Source: a virus
IMG/VR virus record: IMGVR_UViG_3300029286_000229
Span: 1 to 25,579 of that record
DNA: 25,579 bases
Direction: 5' to 3' (one strand)
A model generated the notes under the pieces. The model made no database searches, was not told the DNA's origin, and worked only from the letters and a program-made list of their open reading frames with translations. Made by a program: the position numbers and the translations under genes. Shown piece by piece: positions 4,420 through 25,512 of this stretch. Each line of letters begins with the position of its first letter. The first letter of the stretch is position 1.

Positions 4420-4784
4420 TATACATACCTTGCTAGTTCATCTTCACCTAAATCTTGTATGCGATTGGGCGGGATTTTAGTTGTGGAGAAGTACCATCCG
4501 TGGTCATATGTCAATGGAATACCCGTCACATCAATTTGCAACAATGTCAATGGATCATCGCTACCCTCTGACTTGGCGTACATCCATCCACCGACCATAC
4601 TTAGTTCTCTTTGTAACTTGACCTTATCACCTTCGTCTACAACCATAAATGCTTTGCCATCATACGGATCTAGCCCAGCATATAGAATTTCTTCTGCGTT
4701 TTCAGTACTGGTAATATGGTACGCAGTTTTAAACTCATGGTCATGATGTGTCCTTGATTCAGTGACAAATTCAGTTGCTCTCAT
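4419..4784 (-). CDS. Small ART/KptA-like fold protein with capsid-targeting-like N-terminus
   Basis: 121 residues from the ATG at 4784 (MRATEFVTES). An ATG at 4796 would add MGTQ, but 4784 is preferred because it starts the shared motif and forms an ATGA overlap with the stop of the 2006-residue gene. Residues following the leader (AYHITSTENAEEILYAGLDP) fit the opening strand-helix-turn of DarT/KptA-like ART folds, and the later IDVTGIPL and IPPNRIQDLGE match the strand and C-terminal segment I associate with such small phage proteins. It would be a second ART-like protein beside the 361-residue one. The catalytic Glu cannot be assigned, and the domain call is from motif memory only. Confidence 0.72.
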   Translation of the reverse strand: MRATEFVTESRTHHDHEFKTAYHITSTENAEEILYAGLDPYDGKAFMVVDEGDKVKLQRELSMVGGWMYAKSEGSDDPLTLLQIDVTGIPLTYDHGWYFSTTKIPPNRIQDLGEDELARYV

Positions 4785-7700
4785 TTGGGTTCCCATTGCA
4801 TACTTTTACTACCTTTAACAGTAGGAGTAAACCCTTGACCTCTGTAGAACTTGGTTAATTTACTTTGACTCACTTGTCCTTTGTCCCAAGGAAACAGTGT
4901 CAAGCTGATGCCATCTTCTCTTGCCATGGCTTGTAGTTCTTGCATGGCACGTGACCCAACACCTTGACGTAGCGGATATGCTTGAATCCATTTGACTTCA
5001 ACTGCGCCGCGCTTGCTAAAGCTAGGAACAAGTTCAAACATAGCAAACTGTTGGTCATCGCCTTTGCCCCAGACCATAACGTGATTGTTCTGCATGGTGT
5101 ATGGATACTTTGCGTAGACTCGTTCAATCCATGCCTGTGCAGCATCATTGTTGCCTAGTTTGATTCTTATTGGCTCTTCTTCTTCGGCTACATCTTTCAT
5201 TAGATGTTTAGCATCGCCGGACTTCTTCCAAGCATCCCACATGGCCTTGCCAGGCGGCAATTGATTTCTACTTGGTACAATAGTGTTACCCAACATTCTC
5301 ACATACGCATAGATGTTACGTGCTATACCGCGGCCTTGATATTCAAGTTTCAAGCTGGTAACTGCTGACACTAGACCATTTTTGCTGGGTCTAAATTTTG
5401 CAAGACCTATCTGTTGATAATTGTCGTCTAGCACTTTGACTTGAAAATATTCTTTACCATTTATTTCAATCCCAGTGGCACGATATGTCAGCCCATCAAA
5501 AATTTGGGTGTCGTTGAACGCTGGATTGAAAACATCTGGATTGATAGTTTCATTTAAGTTGTTGGCCATTACTTGTGGTAAGAAACTGGCGGCAATGTGT
5601 TGGCAAGTGTTAAAAATGTCAGCATTATCAGTGACCTGCAGATTGAATGGATAGTCTGTGGTAGGATGCTGTGTGGGGTCTTGCCACCCAGCATAACATT
5701 TTTCAATACCAAAGTCAGCTAACAAATCAGTGCAACTCTCTCCATACCTCTCATCCATGTCATGCACACAAGGACTCAATGTAGTGACCATGATGGCATT
5801 GGGACCAATACGACCGTGACGTTTGAGATGCTGGTCTATGGCCACTCGTTCAGCATGGCGTCGTGTTCCGTTGAGCCCAGGCAAGTTGATAGCATAAGTG
5901 TGATTGTTTTTGTTATCAATCAAACAAGCAGCCACACGTCCATACTTTTCTGGATCAGTCTCATGACCACGATGTATCATGTTGATGCACTTTTTCAGCA
6001 CATTATCTAGTTTACCAAGTTTTGTGATCTCTTGGCTTTCATCCATATCTTCTTCACCAGGCTCGTCTAGGTCGTGTATGGGCAAGCCAAGGCGTTTGAG
6101 CTTGTGACTGTACATGTTTTCTAGCTCTTCGCTGCCAAACGCCAACACAGTATGCGGCGGGCCTTGATTGTAATGAGACTTGTCGGCTTGATCAAGATCG
6201 CTAATGTCTTGTCCCAACTGATACCAATCTTGGGTGTCGCTCACATCCACTTTGATTGTGCCAGCGGGCATTTTGGGAGGTGTTTCAGGACCAGTTGGTT
6301 TTTGATTGCCTAGAGCATCCAGGTCACGACGTAATCGTTGTTCTAACACTGTGATGTTTTCTGACACTGATTGAGAACGTAGTCTCACTGAGAAGTTACT
6401 GGCATCCACTTCTGGATTTGCCTGCATTGCAGTAGCCACCCATTCTTGACCTCGACGCCAGGCTTCTGTTTGATTTGCTGCCTGTATTACAAATACTGGT
6501 TGATTGGAAGATCTATTGTATACTTCCCACTGTGTTTGTGCCATTGGGATATCTAATTCAACGTCTTCTACTCCTGGAATTGGGGTGGATGTGTATTGGT
6601 ATTGTTGTTGGCTTGCTGCAACACCCATCTCTGGTACTACTGTAACTCCAGCCTGCATACGCCCAGGATTACTACGCATCCAGTTTATGGCCACACGGTT
6701 GGCATCACTCTGTACATTGCCTACTCCCGAGAAGCGATGTATTTCTTGACCGTCCGGATTCAAGATCAACCAGTTGCCAGTGAATGTTTGCTGACCTTGA
6801 CCCGGACGAGTTAAAGTTTGCGGTATGCCAACGTCAACAATGCCACCTTGTGCTGCATCTGAATTATTGCCCTGGCGGGTACGAACACCGTACAATTCAG
6901 GAGCTTCGCCACGCATGCCTAACGCCAAACGTGCTTCTTGTTCAGCTTCGGGTCTACTGGTATTGCTCAACTCTCTCACAGTAGAGTTGTCGCTGATTCT
7001 ATAGATTTCCCATGGACCTGGGCCAGTGGGCACCAAGTTGCGTGGCTGTCCTTCGCGTGGTACATTTTGTGTGCTAACGAATGCATTTGATGATCGCGCT
7101 GGCACTGTCGACGCCCGGAACAGGTGAGAACGGCCAGCGGTGTTGCCAAATATATCTGGTCTTGCTTCTCCAGCAGCTCTTATAGCGTTTAGCTCAGATG
7201 ACGCACGAATTTGTATTTCTTGCCCAGGATTACCTTGTGGGCTTACATACCAGATTGGTTGTTCAGTCTGTTGTGGTTCAATTTCACGCACTTCAATGTC
7301 AGTTATCATACGAGAATTTTGTTCACGACCTTGAGTTATGAACTGTTCAGCAGCCTCACGACTTGGGAATCTACGCAACACATTGTTGTCAGACTGGCCA
7401 GGAGCTCTAGCAAAGCGGTTCATGTCATTCATCCAAATGCCCCAGTTGCCTGTACTTGGTTGTGCGGCAGATTGTGGGCCAGGTTGTTGCTGATCACCAC
7501 CACGGGCAACCACAGTGCCAGCACGATCAACTAAACTAAAGTCATGTGGATTATTTTCCCCTGAAACAAACTGTCTAAACTTTTGTACAGCGTCTTCTTG
7601 ACTTGATGCTGTGATCGATGATCTATTGTAACCGGCTCGAGCATCATAAACGCTATAGGACAATGATGGCTTCGGATCCTGATATGGTCGTAGCGGTTTT

Positions 7701-10700
7701 GCCTGTAGAGTGTTCCGTGCGCTGGCCCAGTCTGGGTAGTTGCCTGGTTCTATAGCCTTGGCGATGGCTTCTTCCTTGCTAGAAGCAACAATTTCAATGC
7801 TGGCAAAATATCCAGGACGACTCACATCCCACCAATATTTTTGTCCCTTTGGTGTCTTGCCTTTGGCAAGATTACGGGCGAGATTCTGTTGCTCTAGTTC
7901 TTGAAAAGTTGCTTTTCTAAAGTCTTTGATGGCCTGTTGCGTTTCTTTGCTTAGTTTGTCGCCGACTTCTTTGCTATTGCCCTGCAACGATACCATGTAC
8001 TTGGCAAACTCTTGAATCATATCACCATATTCGTCCTTGGTACCGTTAGGATTCAACAGTTTGTACAGCTTCTTGAGATATTCTTGGCGATACTTTTCAG
8101 GATCCATCGCAGCGTCCAGGGCCACAGTAAATCGTAATAGGGTATCTTCAATCTTGCTGAAGTTTGAATCCAACCAGTCGCCACCCGGACTCCGGAATTC
8201 AATGTATCCTGTCTTGGTATTGATACTGGTATATTTTTCTGTAGTGCCTGTGTGAATGGCCTTGGTGGCAATGTCTTCCATGTGCTCACGCATCTTGTCC
8301 ATGACCTGCGGAGCAATATCAGGATTGCGTTTCAGCATGGTTTTAATTTTGCCAATTGCTGACTTGGCATAGTTATTGCCTGAACGTCCAAACAGTTCTA
8401 GCACATATTCATCGCCCATGAGCAGGGCCAGTTTGACATAGTCCAGTTTGTCAAGACTGTAGTTGGGTACTGAAATGTTGATATGCAAGCCAGTGCTGTC
8501 ATTGGTATAGCAACCAGACTTGTCTGCCCAAGCCTTGACCTTGTTTAGATCTGAAATCATTTCATCTATGGGCATAGGCGGACTAACAAATTCTAAACCT
8601 TCGTCGCCAGGGTTGTCGCCTTCTAAACTGCCGTCAGGTTCCACAACATAGGTACCTGCTTCACGACGGCCGCCATGGTAATTTCTACTGGCGTTCACAG
8701 GTTTACCCATGTAACTGGAGAATTCATCAGCCACTTGATCTATATCCATGTCACCGTCGTTGCCCTCATTAGCGTCAGTGTAATAGGGCCATTCAATATC
8801 AAAGTTGCTTTCGATGTCACTCATGGTTTGATATTTGTCATCCAAGAAACTGCCTTCATCGTACTCGTCTCGTTGTTCTTCTGCAAACGCTTCAAATGCA
8901 TCATTGAAGACACGGCCTTGATCTTCAAAAGCTTCCAGCACAAACTGTTCTTGTAATTCATCAAGTCTGGCACTCAGCAGTTGAGAGAAGTCTTCGCTCT
9001 CTTGTGGCAAGTCAGGATTGGCATCCATGATTTCGTCACGAGCTTGTAGCATGGCTTCATCACGATCAAACAAGTCATTAACGTTGACAAAGTCACGCAT
9101 GTAATCTACTCCATCGCGTGTCCAAGCTTCAGCAGTTTGTTCCTGCTGCCATTCCTCGTACTCGTTTTGTATTTCTTCCATTAGGTCATCTACTGCACGG
9201 CGTCCATTGTGGTCACCGTCATGGAAAAAGTCTCGAATGTCACTGAAGCTTCTGGTACGTTGATCCTGATCGTAGTCTGGTTCCCAGTCAGGTTCTTGTT
9301 CATCGACCCCAACATCGGGCACAATCATTTCAAATTCCATGCCTGCCTGTGCGCCTGTTTGTGCTGCTAACTGACGCAGATTGGTGCTGGTCATCTTGAT
9401 TTCAAACAGATCTTTCTCTTTGAACTCTCGCAACATCTTGTTTAAACCGGCTGTGAGTAATGCAGGATGACCTTGTGAATCTGTTTGTAATCCAAGTTTG
9501 TTGGCTTCCTTGCCCACAGCACCTGGACGCACATCTCGGGTCAAGGCCATGACAAATCTTGGATCGCGTGCCTGTGCCTTTGTGGGTATGTATCCTGACG
9601 CTTCTTCCAGTGTGACCCCATCAAACATTTCAGGCTGTTCTTCAGCCCACTGTCGCATGATACGGCCAGCCATGGCGTTGGCTTGGTCTTCCCAAGGGCT
9701 ACCAGTTTCACCAGCATCTATAGGCAGGGGATTTCTTTCATCCTGCTGACGATGTGTCATCTCATGGGCCATGGTGCGAAGTATATCCAACACATGGCGT
9801 CCCGCGGTGGCCAAGATCAGTGTGTTGCTTTCTGGTTCGTATTGACCAAAGCTACCGTTCTCTTGACTCCATTCTGGTGTTGTTTCCAAACGCAATCTAG
9901 GTGGATTCTCTAATTTAAGTTTATCTACACAACTGGCATAGAAACGATGTAGGATCTTTTTCAAATGGTCAAGTTCTACACTTTCATCCACTTGTTCTGA
10001 TTCAGTACCAGCAGGGTGATCTTGGCCAGCATACGCAGTACCTGGATACCAGTAATCACGCATGCCGTAATTGACTTTCTTTCTGGCAGCAGGCTTACGA
10101 TTTAAACTCAACTCACGATCTTGTATTGCTGTCTTGGCATCTTTTAATTTGCCAATGCAACCCATATTTCTCAACAATTTAAATGCAATGTTCTCGCAGC
10201 CAAACTCACCATTCTTTTCCAGGCCAGTTTGGCGCATTGTTTTGATCTTGTCCCACAGCTGATTCACAGCATCTGCATTGCCGGACTTGATAGCTGAATG
10301 TATTCTGGCATCAAGATCAGCTGTTTTGTGTTGTACACAAGAGTCATCTATGCTAGCACGACGGCGCTGTGGAACTTGTACCCAGTCACCATTCTTTACG
10401 CTGTAAATGCCTTGACTCACATGCTTTTGATCACTGGGCTGCACATACAGTTCCACTGGAACGCCAGCAATCTTTATGTCATGCTCGGCATTATACTGAT
10501 ATTTTTTTGCATTGAACAGTTCTTGATACACAGGATCGTCAGGCATGTCCACCACAAGGTGTAGATCAATGTCTGAATGGCGAGTATAAGAATAGGCAGC
10601 ATTGCTACCTGATATGGTAATGTCCTGAATGTTGAGATCATCAACACCCAGGAATTCTTGAAAATTTGACGCAATTGCCAGCAACTTGTCACGCACATCA

Positions 10701-10801
10701 GGTAACAAGTGCTCGTCTGACCCCCACAAACGGGGGTTCAAACGTTGATGGAATTTTACAGCATCGGCGAGATTAAAGTTGTCAAGATCATGGAAATTCA
10801 T
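4781..10801 (-). CDS. Giant multi-enzyme protein: NTase, metallopeptidase, amidoligase, repeats, deaminase, two GNAT-like domains
   Basis: 2006 residues, 6 kb, one uninterrupted frame. Modules in order: Pol-beta-type nucleotidyltransferase (about 1-240; G65-S66 ... D77-x-D79); zincin with H346-E-M-T-H350 and possible third ligand E371; amidoligase-like ATP-dependent ligase (about 465-905; GMEFE 487, GLEFVSPP 735, TGLHINIS 770, IEFRSPGG 867); about seven degenerate repeats (985-1480); a small module (1510-1585); CDA-fold deaminase (H1649-A-E1651, P1677-C1678, C1690); GNAT-like domain with QGRGIA at 1822; GNAT with RQGVGSRAM at 1945. Candidate prohead-protease sites fall at several module borders (VDE273-S, LEE400-A, MDE1588-S, LNE1751-T, VAE1873-E). 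It lacks the N-terminal leader of its downstream neighbours but is coupled to them by ATGA. GATAAATA lies four nucleotides before the ATG. Probably virion-associated and injected; that is inference. Confidence 0.9.
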   Translation of the reverse strand: MNFHDLDNFNLADAVKFHQRLNPRLWGSDEHLLPDVRDKLLAIASNFQEFLGVDDLNIQDITISGSNAAYSYTRHSDIDLHLVVDMPDDPVYQELFNAKKYQYNAEHDIKIAGVPVELYVQPSDQKHVSQGIYSVKNGDWVQVPQRRRASIDDSCVQHKTADLDARIHSAIKSGNADAVNQLWDKIKTMRQTGLEKNGEFGCENIAFKLLRNMGCIGKLKDAKTAIQDRELSLNRKPAARKKVNYGMRDYWYPGTAYAGQDHPAGTESEQVDESVELDHLKKILHRFYASCVDKLKLENPPRLRLETTPEWSQENGSFGQYEPESNTLILATAGRHVLDILRTMAHEMTHRQQDERNPLPIDAGETGSPWEDQANAMAGRIMRQWAEEQPEMFDGVTLEEASGYIPTKAQARDPRFVMALTRDVRPGAVGKEANKLGLQTDSQGHPALLTAGLNKMLREFKEKDLFEIKMTSTNLRQLAAQTGAQAGMEFEMIVPDVGVDEQEPDWEPDYDQDQRTRSFSDIRDFFHDGDHNGRRAVDDLMEEIQNEYEEWQQEQTAEAWTRDGVDYMRDFVNVNDLFDRDEAMLQARDEIMDANPDLPQESEDFSQLLSARLDELQEQFVLEAFEDQGRVFNDAFEAFAEEQRDEYDEGSFLDDKYQTMSDIESNFDIEWPYYTDANEGNDGDMDIDQVADEFSSYMGKPVNASRNYHGGRREAGTYVVEPDGSLEGDNPGDEGLEFVSPPMPIDEMISDLNKVKAWADKSGCYTNDSTGLHINISVPNYSLDKLDYVKLALLMGDEYVLELFGRSGNNYAKSAIGKIKTMLKRNPDIAPQVMDKMREHMEDIATKAIHTGTTEKYTSINTKTGYIEFRSPGGDWLDSNFSKIEDTLLRFTVALDAAMDPEKYRQEYLKKLYKLLNPNGTKDEYGDMIQEFAKYMVSLQGNSKEVGDKLSKETQQAIKDFRKATFQELEQQNLARNLAKGKTPKGQKYWWDVSRPGYFASIEIVASSKEEAIAKAIEPGNYPDWASARNTLQAKPLRPYQDPKPSLSYSVYDARAGYNRSSITASSQEDAVQKFRQFVSGENNPHDFSLVDRAGTVVARGGDQQQPGPQSAAQPSTGNWGIWMNDMNRFARAPGQSDNNVLRRFPSREAAEQFITQGREQNSRMITDIEVREIEPQQTEQPIWYVSPQGNPGQEIQIRASSELNAIRAAGEARPDIFGNTAGRSHLFRASTVPARSSNAFVSTQNVPREGQPRNLVPTGPGPWEIYRISDNSTVRELSNTSRPEAEQEARLALGMRGEAPELYGVRTRQGNNSDAAQGGIVDVGIPQTLTRPGQGQQTFTGNWLILNPDGQEIHRFSGVGNVQSDANRVAINWMRSNPGRMQAGVTVVPEMGVAASQQQYQYTSTPIPGVEDVELDIPMAQTQWEVYNRSSNQPVFVIQAANQTEAWRRGQEWVATAMQANPEVDASNFSVRLRSQSVSENITVLEQRLRRDLDALGNQKPTGPETPPKMPAGTIKVDVSDTQDWYQLGQDISDLDQADKSHYNQGPPHTVLAFGSEELENMYSHKLKRLGLPIHDLDEPGEEDMDESQEITKLGKLDNVLKKCINMIHRGHETDPEKYGRVAACLIDNKNNHTYAINLPGLNGTRRHAERVAIDQHLKRHGRIGPNAIMVTTLSPCVHDMDERYGESCTDLLADFGIEKCYAGWQDPTQHPTTDYPFNLQVTDNADIFNTCQHIAASFLPQVMANNLNETINPDVFNPAFNDTQIFDGLTYRATGIEINGKEYFQVKVLDDNYQQIGLAKFRPSKNGLVSAVTSLKLEYQGRGIARNIYAYVRMLGNTIVPSRNQLPPGKAMWDAWKKSGDAKHLMKDVAEEEEPIRIKLGNNDAAQAWIERVYAKYPYTMQNNHVMVWGKGDDQQFAMFELVPSFSKRGAVEVKWIQAYPLRQGVGSRAMQELQAMAREDGISLTLFPWDKGQVSQSKLTKFYRGQGFTPTVKGSKSMQWEPK

Positions 10802-11797: not shown

Positions 11798-12490
11798 CTA
11801 CGACCTAGCTTCGTCCAAATAATCTTCAACCATGGGCTGATTGTACTTGCTTTGATAGCTGGCCCGCATGCCGCCTTGGCTCATTTGACGTGTGACTTGT
11901 TCTGCAACTTCAGTGCCCATAACAGTATCCAACATCCGGACCACTGTGTTGGCCAGCTGGGGATTGCCTTGTGTTGTGGGATAAAGGCTCATGACCAATG
12001 CAGTTCGTTGGCGTTGATTTAAATCAGGCCATGCTGTGCGTATTTGTGTGGCCGATGTCATACCTGGACCAAACTCCACAACGGGCAAGTAGGTCATGTA
12101 TGCGTGTTGAGTCATGGGCGCCATGTTGTCACTGATGGGTTGCAGATATGCCGGTGTACCGTCACGTTTCACACCACCCGGCTGCGGAGGCTTGTTGGCG
12201 TCTTTTTCACTGCGCACAAAGATCAACTGTGTGTCTGCAGGGTTATAGTTTTTTGTTATTTCTTCTGCACGAAATGGACTCTTCACTTGATAGAAATCAC
12301 CTGGAGAAACTCCAGCCAATTGTGCTAGTTTTTCTTTTAATTTAAAAGGAAACGGGCGTGTTGAAGTGTCGTTGGTTGCAGCCACTTTGACATCAGCATT
12401 GGGAAATGCTCGTTGAGCAGATTTGTACAGTTCTAAATGGCCGGGGTGAAAAGGGTGTGCGCCCATTGGTAATACTACTAAAGTTTTCAT
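11798..12490 (-). CDS. HxGH nucleotidylyltransferase
   Basis: 230 residues. The first strand and loop, VVLPMGAHPFHPGH with H15-P-G-H18, are the signature of cytidylyltransferase/NMNAT-type nucleotidylyltransferases, which join an NTP to a phosphorylated small molecule and release pyrophosphate. TSATQIRTAW around 155-164 takes the place of the second nucleotide-binding motif (ISSTxIR). The middle contains a Pro/Gly-rich stretch (KPPQPGGVKRDGTPAYLQP) and the C-terminus ends VEDYLDEARS, whose L-D-E-A resembles a prohead protease site. Substrate unknown. It is one of three HxGH enzymes in the window. A perfect TATAAATA late promoter stands five nucleotides before the ATG. Confidence 0.82.
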   Translation of the reverse strand: MKTLVVLPMGAHPFHPGHLELYKSAQRAFPNADVKVAATNDTSTRPFPFKLKEKLAQLAGVSPGDFYQVKSPFRAEEITKNYNPADTQLIFVRSEKDANKPPQPGGVKRDGTPAYLQPISDNMAPMTQHAYMTYLPVVEFGPGMTSATQIRTAWPDLNQRQRTALVMSLYPTTQGNPQLANTVVRMLDTVMGTEVAEQVTRQMSQGGMRASYQSKYNQPMVEDYLDEARS

Positions 12491-12569: not shown

Positions 12570-13259
12570 ATGTATTTACAAAACAAATATACCCGTTGTT
12601 ATTATAATATTATTCAACGAGCCAACATCAGAATTCTTAAACCCCCATACGAACATCATCATATAATTCCCCGGAGCCTAGGCGGAAATAATTTTAAAAA
12701 AAACATAGTCAAATTAACAGCACATGAACATTTTGTGTGCCACCTTTTGTTAACAAAAATGGTCGAAGGTAAGAATAGAGAAAAGATGGTTTATGCAGCC
12801 TGGGCAATGGCAAATCAAGAAAATCAAAATCAACAACGACACAAGGTTACTGGAAAAATTTATTCTATTCTAAAACAAGAATATTGTAAGGTTAAATCAT
12901 TGCATACTAAACTTAACAATCCCATGCATGACCCTGAAATTCGATTACGGCATCAAGAAGCAATTACTAAACGAGGGAAAACTTTAGGGAACACTGGACA
13001 TAAACGTGGTGCAATGTCAGAAGAATTAAAAGCAATTCTTCGTCAAAAAACAATAGACTCAATGACCAGCGAAAGACGAGAACAGATTAAACAACAACAG
13101 TTAAACAGGACACCGGAACAGAAAGAAAAATATGCATTTGCTCATTCTAAAAGAATATCATGCATATATTGTCGTTGTGTATGTGCTCCTGGAAACTTTG
13201 CCCGTTATCACGGTAATAACTGTAAATTAAATAATCTACAAGTGGCGGGCATTCAATAG
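12570..13259 (+). CDS. HNH homing-type endonuclease with C-terminal zinc finger
   Basis: 229 residues on the strand opposite to nearly all neighbours. Residues 28-41 (EHHHIIPRSLGGNN) and the following TAHEHFVCH at 50-58 form the HNH beta-beta-alpha-metal motif of free-standing phage endonucleases. The middle is a long basic Gln/Lys/Arg-rich region likely to bind DNA (NUMOD-like repeats are possible). C198-x2-C201-x12-H214-x3-C218 fits a C2HC zinc finger often found with these enzymes. AAGGAG sits eight nucleotides before the ATG. The gene is visibly richer in A than its neighbours and its last seven bases overlap, tail to tail, the end of the minus-strand gene at 13253. This suggests a late insertion between two late transcription units. 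It probably promotes its own spread to related phages. Confidence 0.88.
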   Translation: MYLQNKYTRCYYNIIQRANIRILKPPYEHHHIIPRSLGGNNFKKNIVKLTAHEHFVCHLLLTKMVEGKNREKMVYAAWAMANQENQNQQRHKVTGKIYSILKQEYCKVKSLHTKLNNPMHDPEIRLRHQEAITKRGKTLGNTGHKRGAMSEELKAILRQKTIDSMTSERREQIKQQQLNRTPEQKEKYAFAHSKRISCIYCRCVCAPGNFARYHGNNCKLNNLQVAGIQ

Positions 13260-13798: not shown

Positions 13799-13806
13799 TA
13801 TTTATG
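13799..13806 (-). promoter_or_regulatory. T4-type late promoter (CATAAATA)
   Basis: Minus-strand CATAAATA, seven of eight. Its TAA is also the stop codon of the 230-residue gene at 13802, and it ends four nucleotides (CAGT) before the ATG at 13794. Expected to drive the 54-residue and 125-residue genes. Confidence 0.65.
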
Positions 13807-14494
13807 GTCGTTTTTGCACTTGTACGGTTTTACGAGTTAGCCCAGGGCATAGCATTGCCAGCATGGTAATATGCTTGAGATCATTGTGTTCTACAAAATA
13901 ATGTTCCCGGCTCCATGATGAATGCGGTTTTGTTCTACCCCATCGGTAACCTTGTAGTATAGTATCAGTGAACCATTTTTCAGTAACAGGACTGGCCACG
14001 AGATCTGGAGCCTGATGGCTGATCCAATTCCACACTGCTTGTTTTTTATCTGTGGACAGCTTCTTTTCTTTAAGATAAGTTCTGTAAGGATATTTGGGTT
14101 GATTGTTTAACATGACAACATCCCTGGAATACGCAAGTACTGCTTGTTTCATAGTGGATTTTGTTGGATAATTCCTGTACATTGTCTCAACGTCTTTGAT
14201 GTCATTGGTGTACACATGAAATCTATTTTGCCCATAGGTGCGATGAATGTATGCACTGCGAAGATTTTCTAATACGTCCACTGCATGCATTATGTTTTGT
14301 TTGGTCAATTCGTCAGTCACTGGGTGTCCAACTGACAAATTATATTGATCACGTCTATGTAACCGTTCCAGGATCTTTGTGAGAGAAAGATTGTTCAACA
14401 GCCACGCACCATCAATATCAAAACTTATTGCATATTCATACTTTCCAAAATAAAGTGATCCGCGTGGGTCACACTGTAAATAGGGTAGTGACAT
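13802..14494 (-). CDS. Conserved hypothetical protein (230 aa)
   Basis: 230 residues, not assigned to any family. The start MSLPYLQCDPRGSLYFGKYEYAIS looks like a strand pair; a long mixed region follows with IMHAVDVLENLRSAYIHRTYG and a final VEHNDLKHITMLAMLCPGLTR. No catalytic motif stands out. The gene overlaps the 3' end of the ClpA-like gene by 26 bases, and AAAGGAACC about seven nucleotides before the ATG supplies a ribosome-binding site inside that gene. Being coupled to the ClpA-like gene, it could be an adaptor or partner of that unfoldase; this is speculation from position only. Confidence 0.7.
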   Translation of the reverse strand: MSLPYLQCDPRGSLYFGKYEYAISFDIDGAWLLNNLSLTKILERLHRRDQYNLSVGHPVTDELTKQNIMHAVDVLENLRSAYIHRTYGQNRFHVYTNDIKDVETMYRNYPTKSTMKQAVLAYSRDVVMLNNQPKYPYRTYLKEKKLSTDKKQAVWNWISHQAPDLVASPVTEKWFTDTILQGYRWGRTKPHSSWSREHYFVEHNDLKHITMLAMLCPGLTRKTVQVQKRP

Positions 14495-16736
14495 GCTGTG
14501 GTTCCTTTAGTTCAAATACAATCTTGTTGTCTTGCAATTCTACATTCAATGAACAGTCAGTCAATTGTTCAAACAAAATGCGTCGACTCAATGGTACACG
14601 AATCAATTCATCAATTTTGCGATTCAACGGACGAGCACCCATTTTGCTGTCGTAGCCTTTTTCTGCCAACAACTCAATCACTTCTTCAGAGAAAAACAAC
14701 CGGATATTCTTTTCTGCTACACTTGATTTAAGCTGATCCAAGAACTTCACAACAATCTTCTTGATAGCCAGGGTATCCAACTTGGTAAACTTGCAAATTT
14801 TATCAATACGATTGCGTAGCTCTGGGCGGAAGAACTCTTTCATTGCACGATCTTCTTCTCCAGATTTTTCCAAATCAGTACTGAATCCAATGTTGTTGGT
14901 TTCATTGTCTCTGGCACCTAAGTTAGATGTCATGATGATAATGGTATTTTTGCAGTCTACCCGTTTGCCGTTTGCACCTGTTACATGTCCTTCGTCTAGC
15001 ATTTGCAGCAGGATATTAGTAACATCCGAATGTGCTTTTTCAATTTCATCAAACAAGATCACAGAGAATGGATGTTTACTCAGATCTGAAATTAGTTTAC
15101 CACCGCCTACATTACCATCTTCAAATCCCACATAGCCTGGAGGTGCACCAATCAAACTGCTGACAGAGAACTTCTCTTGAAACTCACTCATGTCATAACG
15201 TAACAAGTGCATGTCCAAGTTTTCACTCAATAGCTTGGCCAATTCAGTTTTGCCTGTACCAGTTGGACCCAAGAACAAGAAACTTGCCATGGGCTTGCCT
15301 TGTGTGCCAATTCCTGAGAAGTTGATATACACACGTTCTAGTACTGAATCCACAGCTTCTTCTTGTCCGTAGAGTTTTTGTTTGATGTTACTTTCTAAAT
15401 CCACAATCTTCAAACTGCGTTCATTTTGCAGTCTATCAGTGGGTACACCAGTCACTCTTGCCACTTGTTCTTCGATCATGCTTTTATTAACAGTGACCTG
15501 GCCTGCATCCCGAACACGTTCTCTAGCACAGGCAGCATCCAGCAAATCGATACTTTTGTCTGGATTCTTCTTGTCATGAATATAACGAGCAGCAAGATCC
15601 ACAGCAGCAGTCATGGCTTCTGTGTCAATCAGTACATTGTGGAATGTTTCCAAACGTGGGCTCAGTCCAATTAGAATTTTTTCTGTAGTGTCACGATCAG
15701 GTTCATCAATGCTGAGACGATAGAACCGACGCATGAGTGCTCGATCTTTCTCAAATGATTCGTAGTATTCTTCCCAAGTTGTGCTGGCAATAACTTTCAA
15801 ATGCCCTTTGGTAATTGCTGGTTTCAACATGTTGGCAAAGTCCAAGCTGCCCGAACTGCCTGCTCCTGCACCTTTCATGGTATGTGCTTCGTCCACGAAC
15901 AAAATACACTTCTTCTTGGCTTCCAGTGCAGCAATCACTGCTTTAAACTTTTCTTCAAAGTCCCCGCGATATTTGGATCCTGCTACCAAACTGCCAATTT
16001 CAAGACTCCACACTTCGTGATCTTTGAGGAACTTGGGCACACGATTTTGTGCAATTTCCTGCGCAAGTCCTTCGATGATGGCAGTTTTGCCCACACCTGG
16101 ATCACCTACCATGAGTACATTGGCTTTGAAACGACGTGCTAGTACAGCAATCATTTCGTCCAGTTCTGTCGAGCGGCCAATTAACGGCTCTAATTGATCA
16201 GCAGCAGCCATGGCACTCAGACTGGTACAATATTCTTCCAGCACTTCAGTAGCTTGTTGACTATTCATACCTGCGGCTGCACGTTCTGACTTGTAGTTCT
16301 TGGTCCAAAAATCCACAAATTCAGCTTTGTGTACGCCGTATTTCAGCAAGAAGTAGTGTGCATTGCTGTTGGTCTCGCCCATGATGGCCAAGTACAAGTC
16401 CACAGTGACCACTTGTCTACGTCCTGTAAACAACACCTGTGTTAGAGCACGATTAAACACTCGTTCTAATGAAGCGGTTTTGCGTGGAGTCAAATCTTCC
16501 CCAGCACGAATCAGACTTTGTAGGCTTTCTAAATAGCCACACAGTTCAGTTTCCAACATGACCACGTCACAGCCATATTTGGATAAAGTTTTTCTAAATG
16601 GATCATGTCTTACGAGACTCAACAGTAAATGTTCTGTTAGCACATATTCGTGTTGCCATGTACGTGCGATTTGCACTGCGCCTTCGATGATAGCGTCAAT
16701 TTCGGGATTGTCTTGGATTTGATTTGAATTGCTCAT
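14469..16736 (-). CDS. clpA: ClpA-like AAA+ unfoldase
   Basis: 755 residues, almost exactly the length of E. coli ClpA. An N-terminal Clp repeat domain (1-145) is followed by AAA module 1 (Walker A GDPGVGKT 211-218, Walker B VDEAHT 281-286) and AAA module 2 (GPTGTGKT 490-497, FDEIEKAH 562-569, pore loop GYVGFED 534-540). The coiled-coil middle domain of ClpB is absent, so this is a degradation-type unfoldase and not a disaggregase. N-N-I-G-F at 614-618 sits where ClpA carries its ClpP-docking IGL/IGF tripeptide, so the enzyme should hand substrates to ClpP. No clpP gene is in the window; the host peptidase is the likely partner. It follows the DnaJ-like gene by 47 bases. The substrate could be a host defence or regulatory protein; that is inference. 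Confidence 0.93.
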   Translation of the reverse strand: MSNSNQIQDNPEIDAIIEGAVQIARTWQHEYVLTEHLLLSLVRHDPFRKTLSKYGCDVVMLETELCGYLESLQSLIRAGEDLTPRKTASLERVFNRALTQVLFTGRRQVVTVDLYLAIMGETNSNAHYFLLKYGVHKAEFVDFWTKNYKSERAAAGMNSQQATEVLEEYCTSLSAMAAADQLEPLIGRSTELDEMIAVLARRFKANVLMVGDPGVGKTAIIEGLAQEIAQNRVPKFLKDHEVWSLEIGSLVAGSKYRGDFEEKFKAVIAALEAKKKCILFVDEAHTMKGAGAGSSGSLDFANMLKPAITKGHLKVIASTTWEEYYESFEKDRALMRRFYRLSIDEPDRDTTEKILIGLSPRLETFHNVLIDTEAMTAAVDLAARYIHDKKNPDKSIDLLDAACARERVRDAGQVTVNKSMIEEQVARVTGVPTDRLQNERSLKIVDLESNIKQKLYGQEEAVDSVLERVYINFSGIGTQGKPMASFLFLGPTGTGKTELAKLLSENLDMHLLRYDMSEFQEKFSVSSLIGAPPGYVGFEDGNVGGGKLISDLSKHPFSVILFDEIEKAHSDVTNILLQMLDEGHVTGANGKRVDCKNTIIIMTSNLGARDNETNNIGFSTDLEKSGEEDRAMKEFFRPELRNRIDKICKFTKLDTLAIKKIVVKFLDQLKSSVAEKNIRLFFSEEVIELLAEKGYDSKMGARPLNRKIDELIRVPLSRRILFEQLTDCSLNVELQDNKIVFELKEPQHVTTLFTV
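14883..14891 (-). other. Codons for the ClpP-docking IGF tripeptide
   Basis: ATT GGA TTC on the minus strand encode I616-G617-F618 of the ClpA-like protein, in the loop between Walker B and sensor 1 of AAA module 2, the place of the ClpP-binding loop in ClpA and ClpX. Confidence 0.75.
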
Positions 16737-16753
16737 GTGGACAGTATACTATA

Positions 16754-16769
16754 GATCTCAATAGAGATC
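16754..16769. repeat. Inverted repeat GATCTC-AATA-GAGATC before the ClpA-like gene
   Basis: A perfect 6-bp inverted repeat with a 4-base loop in the 47-base gap between the DnaJ-like and ClpA-like genes. It could be an operator, a weak hairpin controlling readthrough, or chance. No T run follows it. Confidence 0.3.
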
Positions 16770-16783
16770 AACCTTTCACGTAC

Positions 16784-17566
16784 TTATTCGGCAGATTCCT
16801 GCTGTATAGCAGCCATTAATCCTGGAGAGATTCTGGCAGGCAATCTAGCTTGCACCCGGACCAACATATCTCCCAGCTGCCCATTACGATCTGGTAATCC
16901 ACGACCTCTGGCACGCAACATGCTGTTGGGTTGTGTGTTGGGTGGTATGCTGAGTTCAATTCGATTGCCACGTATGTCCAACATGGGAATATCACCCCCG
17001 GTTATTAGTTTCCAAATAGACACAGTGGTTTCAGTATGTACATTGTTGTTGACTCGTTGCCATGTTTTATCTGGATGTACCCGGAATGTGATCACAAGAT
17101 CCTGCCCATTAGGACCAATATTAGGGTATTGCACATTGTCTCCATCTGCGATGCCGTTGGGTATGTTGATTTCAACATTGTGTGTGCCGGTGTGTGTGCC
17201 CATAGAAACCACTCTAGACCCTGGAGCAGCTACATCTTGTATGGTCACCCACAAGGTCATTCTGGCATGTCCACGCTGTTGCGGCTGCTGGAATTTGGCT
17301 CCAAACATGTTGAAGATTTCGTTGAAATCAAAGTTATGATGGAACCCCCCACCTCCAACTGGATGTTGTGGCTGCGGGTTATTATAAGCTGCTCGTTTTT
17401 GTTCGTCGCCAAGAGTTTCGTAAGCTGCTTGAATCTCTTGGAATTTTGTTGTGGAACCACCTGCTCTATCTGGGTGATATGTACTTGCTAATTTTCTATA
17501 TGCTTTTTTTATTTCATCAGCAGAAGCTGTGCGGGCAACGCCTAGGGTAGAATAGTGATCAGTCAT
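16784..17566 (-). CDS. DnaJ/CbpA-like co-chaperone
   Basis: 260 residues. The J-domain (1-63) has the essential H31-P-D33 loop that stimulates DnaK ATPase, between KKAYRKLASTY and FQEIQAAYETLGDEQ. A short Gly/His/Gln-rich linker follows, then a C-terminal substrate-binding region (about 100-250) with GTHNVEINIPNGIADGDNVQ and GLPDRNGQLGDMLVRVQAR, typical of DnaJ C-terminal domains. The four CxxCxGxG zinc repeats of class I DnaJ are missing, which makes it a CbpA-like class II protein. With no phage DnaK here, it would recruit host DnaK. It sits upstream of the ClpA-like gene. No Shine-Dalgarno is visible; a perfect inverted repeat directly precedes the ATG. Confidence 0.92.
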   Translation of the reverse strand: MTDHYSTLGVARTASADEIKKAYRKLASTYHPDRAGGSTTKFQEIQAAYETLGDEQKRAAYNNPQPQHPVGGGGFHHNFDFNEIFNMFGAKFQQPQQRGHARMTLWVTIQDVAAPGSRVVSMGTHTGTHNVEINIPNGIADGDNVQYPNIGPNGQDLVITFRVHPDKTWQRVNNNVHTETTVSIWKLITGGDIPMLDIRGNRIELSIPPNTQPNSMLRARGRGLPDRNGQLGDMLVRVQARLPARISPGLMAAIQQESAE

Positions 17567-17586
17567 TGTGTGTAGTTATACACACA
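17567..17586. promoter_or_regulatory. Perfect inverted repeat TGTGTGTA-GTTA-TACACACA at the dnaJ-like start
   Basis: An 8-bp perfect inverted repeat with a 4-base spacer ending at the base next to the ATG of the DnaJ-like gene, in the place where a Shine-Dalgarno sequence should be. It may be an operator, or an mRNA hairpin presenting or hiding the start codon. It is also the only candidate for a terminator after the small secreted protein gene. Confidence 0.5.
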
Positions 17587-19817: not shown

Positions 19818-20675
19818 TTATAATCCCATGCTTTTTCTTATGTTTGTAGCTGATATACTTGTGATAGATTCATCAAACTTTTCTTCTTCTATTGTATATC
19901 CTACCCCACGACCGTAGCCAATGTGAGTGATATTAGGAACTACTAATATTTCGTATTGCCCTTGATACAATGTATCAAGATCTCGTTTAATAGCTTGTTT
20001 GACCTGGTCGATAGCAAATGGATTACTGCCTTGCCAGCCCTGGCAGTCGCGAATCATGATGCATACTTGTCCTGTTCGTTGTATCAATCTATCAAACAAT
20101 GCACGATGCCCGGCATGCCACGGTTGCCAGCGACCCAACATCTGTATAGTTTCTTTCTTGAAATCAAACACAGGTCTACGGCGATTGTCTAGTATGTGTT
20201 GCCCAATGAATTCTACCCATTTTTCAGCGTTTTGTTCTGTGATTCTGAAATCATATACATTCGGAGGAATAAAGGCTCGGTTAGTATCATCATATCTACC
20301 AGCATCAATTGTGTCCATCCAGATGGTCCAATCTGCTTTAAAATTGTTTCTCATTTCGGGCAATGGTGCAACAAAGTCACAGATAACAAAGTCGCCCGAA
20401 CATTTAACAGCGAACTCAAACATTCTTAAACTTTGTCGAATTCTACCTTCTCTGCTGAAATCCCAATCATTAAATCGTTTGCGTATTTCATCTGCGTTAA
20501 ACCAGTCTACTTTTACATTGTAAAAATCAGGTCCAGGAATACCCTCATAATCTAACACACGCCCTGGAGATATTTTCATAACATCTCCGTGTTGTTCTAG
20601 ATATCTTTTTAATTTTTCGGCAAAGTATGTTTTGCCTGCACCTGGAAGACCCATTATCAATATTTTTTGTGTCAT
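19818..20675 (-). CDS. APS-kinase-like/NMNAT-like bifunctional fusion protein
   Basis: 285 residues with two domains. Residues 1-150 form a P-loop kinase: GLPGAGKT (9-16), then FNADEIRKRFNDWDFS (59-74), RIRQSLRM and a final VICDFVAPLPEMR, the layout of adenylylsulfate kinases. Residues 175-285 are an HxGH nucleotidylyltransferase: GRWQPWHAGH (181-190), SNPFAIDQVKQAI (217-229) and SISATNIRKSM (273-283), closest in pattern to NadM-type NMN adenylyltransferases. A kinase joined to an NMNAT-like domain recalls NadR (NMNAT plus ribosylnicotinamide kinase) in the reverse order. Possible roles are NAD or sulfate-nucleotide metabolism. A hairpin and weak AAAGAAA lie upstream. The exact substrates of both domains are not determined by sequence. 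Confidence 0.85.
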   Translation of the reverse strand: MTQKILIMGLPGAGKTYFAEKLKRYLEQHGDVMKISPGRVLDYEGIPGPDFYNVKVDWFNADEIRKRFNDWDFSREGRIRQSLRMFEFAVKCSGDFVICDFVAPLPEMRNNFKADWTIWMDTIDAGRYDDTNRAFIPPNVYDFRITEQNAEKWVEFIGQHILDNRRRPVFDFKKETIQMLGRWQPWHAGHRALFDRLIQRTGQVCIMIRDCQGWQGSNPFAIDQVKQAIKRDLDTLYQGQYEILVVPNITHIGYGRGVGYTIEEEKFDESITSISATNIRKSMGL

Positions 20676-24396: not shown

Positions 24397-24641
24397 ACCA
24401 GTTCCTCAACAATGCCCAACATTTCGGCTGCAATGAGTAATGCTCCGCCAATCACAAGTGATCCTTGAATAAATGCAATACCTGCAACTATTCTAAGTGC
24501 GCTTTTGACCAGACTTACATAAAAGTGTCCGCGGCTGGTATCTTTGGGTTGAATTTCTATCATGGATTTCCTATGTGGGCAACGCCCCTGTTTATAATCA
24601 CAGTCTGGTTGAATCAGACTGTGACAAATTTTACATTTCAT
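24393..24641 (-). CDS. Small membrane protein with N-terminal Cys cluster (82 aa)
   Basis: 82 residues. C3-K-I-C6, C14 and C21-P-H23 form a possible zinc-binding head. Residues about 42-80 are hydrophobic, with a glycine-rich stretch (SALRIVAGIAFIQGSLVIGGALLIAAEMLGIV) that can be one long or two short membrane helices. ATGA overlaps on both sides place it in the operon of the cytidylyltransferase. Function unknown. Confidence 0.7.
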   Translation of the reverse strand: MKCKICHSLIQPDCDYKQGRCPHRKSMIEIQPKDTSRGHFYVSLVKSALRIVAGIAFIQGSLVIGGALLIAAEMLGIVEELV

Positions 24642-25129
24642 TGTTGTGTCAAACCACGTTCTACTTCAGCTTTGGCCACACGTCGACGTAGACTTGAACT
24701 GGAAAAAGAATGATCTCTTTTGTTGAATACTAGTTCGATGCCTCGTCGACTACCTTCGTCTCGACCAGTAAAATCTTTGTCGCAGTATTCCACGCCCAAG
24801 ATACGTACATCCACGGGCAGGATCAATAACAGATCAATGAGATCTTGTTCAGTTTGATACACCACAACTTCGTCCACATAGCGGCAAGCAGCCAATTGTA
24901 TTTGACGTTCTACTATGCTTTGTACTGGTGAGTTTTTGGTATCTGGTCGATCTATTGTGGGATCAGTTTGTAGCCCGGCAATGAGATAATCACAGTGGTT
25001 CTTGGCTTCACTTAACATGGCAATATGGCCTGCATGAAACATGTCAAATGCCGAAAAAACAATCCCAATTTTCTTGCCATCCTTCTTGAGCTGTTTGATG
25101 TGATTGAAAATCAATTGTGTTGCATCCAC
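24638..25129 (-). CDS. Glycerol-3-phosphate cytidylyltransferase-like enzyme
   Basis: 163 residues. FSAFDMFHAGHIAML (25-39, H32-A-G-H35) is the HxGH nucleotide-binding motif, and RDHSFSSSSLRRR near 137-149 is the second, R-x-H-S-x-S-S-S-x-L-R, both as in TagD/RfaE-type cytidylyl- or adenylyltransferases. It should activate a sugar or polyol phosphate with CTP or ATP, perhaps for surface or DNA sugar modification together with the glycosyltransferase at 10815. The start is GTG at 25129, overlapping the co-chaperonin gene's end by 19 bases; another start further in would truncate the helix before the first strand. Confidence 0.85.
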   Translation of the reverse strand: MDATQLIFNHIKQLKKDGKKIGIVFSAFDMFHAGHIAMLSEAKNHCDYLIAGLQTDPTIDRPDTKNSPVQSIVERQIQLAACRYVDEVVVYQTEQDLIDLLLILPVDVRILGVEYCDKDFTGRDEGSRRGIELVFNKRDHSFSSSSLRRRVAKAEVERGLTQQ

Positions 25130-25512
25130 TCAGGTTTGGCTTCCACATGGATTGCTGTGGAGAAAGTGTCATCGTTGGGCTGTTCGTCTGATACCATCAT
25201 GATATCTTTGGGATCCACACGACGTAGAGTTACCTTGCCGTTTTCATCTTCAATATCAATACCTCGAGTCCAACGCCCATGTTCAACACAGATCCATTGC
25301 CCAGGAACAACATCTTGTTGCTCAGGGCCCACTGCATACACTTGGCCCCAGCGCGGGCGAATGCCAGTGCTTTTGCCATTGTCGTTAGGGATAATAATAC
25401 CACTTGTGGTAATACGTGAATCAAAAACCATGTCACTCACAATCACTGAATTTTTCAGTGGTACAATTTGTTGACGTTTTAGTTGGTGTGGCTGAAAAGC
25501 AAATTTACTCAT
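25111..25512 (-). CDS. GroES-like co-chaperonin
   Basis: 133 residues. The core from RQQIVPLKNSVIVSDMVFD through TTSGIIIPNDNGKSTGIRPRWGQVYAVGPEQQ to GQWICVEHGRWTRGI follows the GroES fold; TSGIIIPNDN corresponds to the mobile loop that docks on GroEL. It is longer than GroES (about 97), similar to T4 gp31 and the co-chaperonins of marine phages, which replace GroES so that host GroEL can fold the large capsid protein. The Gly-Ile-Ile-Ile motif suits GroEL binding. GAGGAA lies about five nucleotides before the ATG, in the end of the upstream gene. Confidence 0.85.
   Translation of the reverse strand: MSKFAFQPHQLKRQQIVPLKNSVIVSDMVFDSRITTSGIIIPNDNGKSTGIRPRWGQVYAVGPEQQDVVPGQWICVEHGRWTRGIDIEDENGKVTLRRVDPKDIMMVSDEQPNDDTFSTAIHVEAKPEWMQHN

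Follow-up and report, generated by a model that had tools for sequence, protein, structure and literature searches.

When a phage encodes its own Clp unfoldase, whose protease chamber does that unfoldase serve? The question is raised by a stretch of viral DNA of 25,579 nucleotides (IMG/VR record IMGVR_UViG_3300029286_000229, the whole of which is here called the window), in which clpA, a gene for a ClpA-type double AAA+ unfoldase, lies next to a gene for a DnaJ-like protein and keeps the tripeptide IGF at the position used for docking onto ClpP. An earlier note, made from the window alone, had proposed that the phage redirects the ClpP of its host. We find instead that the same phage encodes a ClpP and a ClpS of its own, and sequence comparison suggests that the product of clpA is quite probably the unfoldase component of a ClpAP(S) protease supplied by the phage itself.

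Results

The window is 100% identical, end to end, with positions 32751-58329 of G001, a viral contig of 153.9 kilobases (kb), and since related IMG/VR records reach 320-353 kb, its source is probably a jumbo phage, perhaps from fresh water. A search of IMG/VR gave 366 related stretches; the analyses of relatives drew on the 80 best of them, and a few of the IMG/VR records among these relatives are near-duplicates of one another. No clpP lies within the 25.6-kb window, which is so small a fragment that this absence carries no meaning. Genes and motifs were observed directly in the longer contig, as were co-occurrence and gene order across relatives. G001 encodes a canonical ClpP (ClpP1) and a ClpS, together with a ClpX that scores above its equivalog cut-off, an Hsp20 and a second ClpP-like protease, ClpP2 (Table 1). 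Looking for clpP elsewhere in the genome, as the earlier note had advised, thus returned a phage gene, and with clpP, clpS and clpX all present in the matching contig the proposed redirection of host ClpP loses much of its ground.

The catalytic triad of ClpP1 is intact (Ser97, His122 and Asp171) and its docking pocket is mostly kept, with L48, F49, Y62, F82, I90, M92, L114 and L189 retained, F112 replaced by Y and Y60 by S; the pocket positions, like the ClpS/ClpA contact positions below, follow what is known of the E. coli proteins. ClpS scores under the ClpS equivalog cut-offs and retains N34, D35, H66, E79 and K84, with D36 replaced by N. Most residues of the N-degron site, N34, D35 and H66 among them, are thus retained, and so are the positions that we assume to contact ClpA. 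Because ClpP2 does not keep the docking pocket, direct docking of ClpA onto it is unlikely, judging from its sequence; it may form a ring that partners ClpP1, or act as a head protease. Of 16 ClpP-bearing IMG/VR records in one of the searches, 15 have a second ClpP-family match, mostly within a few kb of ClpP1.

The unfoldase itself matches the NCBIfam ClpA model TIGR02639 over amino acids (aa) 12-728 of 755 with 788.9 bits (E 4e-237), under the equivalog cut-off of 993.15 bits. Among phage families it fits PHROG 4871 best, and it is most aptly described as a member of this phage ClpA-type subfamily, not as an equivalog of cellular ClpA. The domains found are Clp_N, AAA, AAA_lid_9, AAA_2 and D2-small. 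A full-length alignment with E. coli ClpA from solved structures bore out the architecture that the earlier note had described, namely an N-domain and two AAA+ modules (D1 and D2) with both Walker sets, the Walker B motifs included. The IGF aligns exactly on IGL 617-619 of E. coli ClpA, and the coiled-coil middle-domain insert is missing, on which ground an identity as ClpB was rejected. The pore loop KYRGD, arginine-finger segments and MGARP are also present. Positions E23, E28, T81 and R86 are identical to those of E. coli ClpA and R131 is replaced by K, all five being positions that we assume to contact ClpS. Relative to E. coli ClpA, a four-residue insertion (aa 542-545, positions 15102-15113) follows the D2 pore loop; it is also seen in the ClpA of Atu_ph07, Phosso and PA5oct and is mostly missing in RaK2 and 121Q.

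Among related IMG/VR records, canonical ClpP turned up in 13 of the 14 that are 200 kb or longer (including all seven of at least 300 kb), in 8 of 16 of 100-200 kb and in 2 of 20 below 100 kb, which is the pattern expected of fragments that miss a gene some 45 kb from clpA. Of the 14 named phages with ClpA, 12 gave a ClpP match that reached 100 bits, LR756501 and VnaP being those without, compared with one (Bacillus phage G) of ten comparison phages picked by name, nine of them large phages and the tenth T4; the corresponding Fisher p of 0.0005 is a guide only, since the phages share ancestry and it overstates their independence. ClpS is usually present alongside ClpP in ClpA-bearing phages.

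The docking loop and the ClpP pocket also vary together. IGF is present in every aligned ClpA of the window clade, together with an intact ClpP pocket, while RaK2-like phages have IGM, IGV, LGM, MGM, VGM or IGG as docking tripeptide and altered ClpP pockets (for example L114 to G). The tripeptide of XaC1 is VGF. In LR756501 the ClpA-like protein lacks IGF, and no ClpP was found. This agreement between loop and pocket, which the present analysis adds, fits a pairing between the ClpA of a phage and its own ClpP, although it comprises few independent changes.

The genes flanking clpA are conserved. A J-protein gene lies directly upstream in 79 of 79 assessable loci, and the first gene downstream belongs to a family that we call U in 72 of 77 scored loci, with another gene in the remaining five; the resulting dnaJ-clpA-U cassette is a further addition of the present analysis. 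In PA5oct and Atu_ph07, too, dnaJ adjoins clpA. The J-protein of the window is CbpA-like, as the earlier note had it, with a J-domain (PF00226) carrying HPD at aa 31-33 and a DnaJ C-terminal domain (PF01556); no zinc-finger domain was found in the domain search, which returned these two domains only. The window's dnaJ-clpA gap holds one sigma-70-like promoter match, and in relatives such matches (at least 9 of 12) are enriched both upstream of clpA (70% versus 14% in shuffles) and upstream of dnaJ (83% versus 11%), where the shuffles preserved base composition only and the sequences compared are related. A perfect 8-base-pair hairpin, TGTGTGTA-TAAC-TACACACA (17567-17586), ends immediately before the dnaJ start codon. 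An open reading frame with peptide deformylase motifs occupies the dnaJ-clpA gap in 8 of 80 loci, and in phage Phosso an annotated peptide deformylase lies between the two genes (L082:11472-11990); this occasional insertion, too, is added by the present analysis. As a general part, peptide deformylase was rejected, a family search having given matches in only 4 of 47 records.

Gene U evolves fast: 49 aligned members share three invariant columns and are 17-64% identical to the window copy, and a pattern scan using that copy alone reached two loci only, the wider family being visible only through its position beside clpA. It has no match in Pfam, PHROG or PDB sequences and no significant PDB-fold match. 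A confident AlphaFold model (mean predicted local distance difference test score 92.4) has two alpha/beta halves resembling ferredoxin-like folds, and the best VIA-align Z of 5.8, to ferredoxin-like domains, is within the usual background. Matches among viral structures are unnamed phage proteins, one of them in Atu_ph07. The earlier note had suggested that this gene acts with ClpA, possibly in selecting substrates; its conserved place in the cassette lends, by itself, some support to an action with ClpA.

Table 1. Coordinates of the features discussed. Plain numbers are positions in the window; L numbers denote loci of other records, with the contig in brackets where given.
Feature	Coordinates	Strand	Remarks
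clpA, ClpA-type double AAA+ unfoldase	14469..16736	minus	755 aa; profile and structure alignment
ClpA N-domain	16296..16709	minus	aa ~10-147; alignment
D1 Walker A GDPGVGKT	16083..16106	minus	aa 211-218
D2 Walker A GPTGTGKT	15246..15269	minus	aa 490-497
D2 pore loop GYVG	15126..15137	minus	aa 534-537
IGF tripeptide at ClpP-docking position	14883..14891	minus	aa 616-618
ClpP1, canonical ClpP	L102:8784-9401 (G001)	minus	313 bits, above NF001368 subfamily cut-off
ClpP2, second ClpP-like protein	L102:12994-13572 (G001)	minus	Ser-His-Asp triad intact; without docking pocket
ClpS	L104:2896-3204 (G001)	minus	passes Pfam ClpS cut-off
dnaJ/cbpA-like J-protein	16784..17566	minus	260 aa; directly upstream of clpA
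Sigma-70-like promoter match TTGATC-17-TATACT, dnaJ-clpA gap	16743..16771	minus	9 of 12
Gene U, third cassette gene	13802..14494	minus	230 aa; overlaps clpA 3' end
Deformylase-motif open reading frame, dnaJ-clpA gap	L013, L046, L047, L050, L062, L067, L069, L073
GroES/gp31-like co-chaperonin candidate	25111..25512	minus	weak match

Elsewhere in the window, an open reading frame of 2006 aa (4781-10801, minus strand) has cytidine-deaminase-like and amidoligase-like matches. HxGH-type nucleotidyltransferase motifs were seen by eye in three proteins (11798-12490, 19818-20675 and 24638-25129), of which the second also has a P-loop and the third matches PF01467; these proteins possibly belong to nucleotide or nicotinamide adenine dinucleotide metabolism. 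A further reading frame (12570-13259, plus strand) contains HHIIPRSLGG, by eye like an HNH homing endonuclease, and has no Pfam match.

Discussion

Because phage ClpP and ClpS co-occur with ClpA, we favour a phage ClpAP(S) machine over the redirection of host ClpP, and a protease chamber borrowed from the host is probably not needed. We infer the assembly of this machine, its ATPase and protease activity, its choice of substrates and the role of phage rather than host ClpP as the main partner. Phage ClpA hexamers would bind phage ClpP rings by inserting their IGF loops into the surface pockets of ClpP, and ATP-driven pore loops would then pull substrates apart and feed the unfolded chains to the ClpP chamber. 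Proteins with particular N-terminal residues (N-degrons) would be delivered by phage ClpS sitting on the N-domain of ClpA, and the J-protein from the neighbouring gene may bring host DnaK to these same proteins, whether misfolded or targeted. The recruitment of host DnaK and GroEL, also put forward in the earlier note, is plausible for a phage that has a J-protein and a GroES-like candidate, with no match to DnaK in the 11 records searched and none to GroEL in 9 of the 11. Two relatives encode a GroEL-type chaperonin of their own (G018:121200-122699 and G021:304177-305676).

Several observations weigh against a phage-encoded protease of this kind. In G001, clpP lies about 45 kb and clpS about 73 kb from clpA, with no common operon, and the ClpPs of the phage and of E. 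coli share 64% identity. The shortfall of ClpA against the equivalog cut-off and the shared ancestry of the phages in the co-occurrence count, both given above, belong here as well, and the IGF loop would also suit a normal host ClpP, so that docking there is possible. It is from this last point that the redirection of host ClpP, as the main docking partner of phage ClpA, draws its force: IGF is a generic docking motif that would fit bacterial ClpP pockets, and the docking loop and pore machinery of ClpA are intact. We nevertheless consider it improbable, given that this phage has a ClpP of its own, its pocket intact, plus ClpS, and that where phage ClpA departs from the IGF consensus the pocket of that phage's ClpP is altered as well, a pattern suggestive of cognate pairing.

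There is likewise only a slim chance that phage ClpA is a ClpP-independent chaperone, remodelling phage proteins (as in virion assembly) without proteolysis. The location of clpA among structural genes in RaK2-like phages would suit such a role, as would the adjacent J-protein in the window clade, PA5oct and Atu_ph07, and the ClpA-like protein of LR756501, a record in which neither IGF nor a ClpP was found. Retention of IGF in all aligned window-clade sequences speaks against it, however, as does the co-occurrence of ClpP and ClpS with ClpA. That the phage ClpPs serve mainly head maturation and accompany ClpA by coincidence is very unlikely, for although the best PHROG of both paralogues is labelled head maturation protease, one peptide of a ClpP homologue was detected in virions of phage CBB (PMC5259590) and ClpP2 has a triad without a docking pocket, ClpP1 is by its score a canonical ClpP and preserves a docking pocket that a head protease does not need.

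Returning to the phage ClpAP(S) protease, a bolder extension of it, which we offer tentatively and think rather unlikely, is an autonomous N-degron pathway in which the phage's own ClpS, ClpA and ClpP, sometimes with the cassette deformylase, would selectively remove host or phage proteins and U would be a phage-specific substrate adaptor of ClpA. A leucyl/phenylalanyl-tRNA transferase (Aat) had no match in 11 records. If the protease works as outlined, these phages enter the cell with their own regulated means of destroying proteins and do not rely only on that of the host, which would give large phages a testable route to remodel the host proteome or to exert quality control over their own proteins. 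It also bears on the published idea that phage ClpS acts on host ClpAP, as most of the ClpA-bearing phages examined have their own ClpA and ClpP.

Comparison with known systems

Phage ClpA is not rare, contrary to the earlier note, and ClpA-type proteins are common in large phages. Besides the 366 related IMG/VR stretches, a tblastn search found such proteins in 198 phage records, although part of these lack annotation or resemble bacterial contamination, and the carriers include the RaK2/121Q group, PA5oct and its relatives, Atu_ph07 and Phosso. A quick tree of 46 ClpA sequences places phage and cellular proteins on opposite sides of one branch (Shimodaira-Hasegawa-like approximate likelihood ratio test 100), although it used no mixture model, its root is unknown and three long phage branches leave its details unsure. 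This split argues against a recent capture of clpA from a host, for which we found no support, the nearest bacterial ClpAs among the matches listed being about 42% identical.

The Clp protein set of phages counts as already known, since published phage papers list its members. Attai et al. 2018 (PMC6102473) listed ClpA, ClpP, ClpS, ClpX, ClpB and DnaJ for Agrobacterium phage Atu_ph07 and remarked that most RaK2-like phages have ClpA. Iyer et al. 2021 (PMC7824862) dealt one by one with the ClpP, the ClpS (as acting on host ClpAP) and the ClpA of phages, suggesting translocation or virion assembly for phage ClpA. Our literature searches found no dedicated paper on phage-encoded ClpP or on phage N-degrons and ClpS. 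What is new here is the joint ClpAPS reading and the cassette.

Atu_ph07 (PMC6102473) resembles the phage of the window in having ClpA, ClpP, ClpS, ClpX and DnaJ together, with dnaJ directly upstream of clpA, but its ClpA is only about 38% identical to that of the window, our search gave a single ClpP-family match and gene U was not detected by sequence. Pseudomonas phage PA5oct and its relatives share the adjoining dnaJ, the IGF loop and a phage ClpP and ClpS, and differ in a divergent N-domain and a partly changed ClpP pocket. The RaK2-like phages (RaK2, 121Q, CBB and BF) have the same ClpA architecture, a phage ClpP and mostly ClpS-like proteins, whereas they have no adjacent dnaJ and their docking tripeptide, ClpP pocket and N-domain contact residues are changed. 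With E. coli ClpAPS, finally, the phage system shares the domain plan, the docking loop, the ClpS contact residues and the ClpP pocket; the differences are that the two ClpAs are 42% identical, that the phage genes are scattered, that phage ClpA has the four-residue insertion after its D2 pore loop and that position 36 of phage ClpS is N rather than D.

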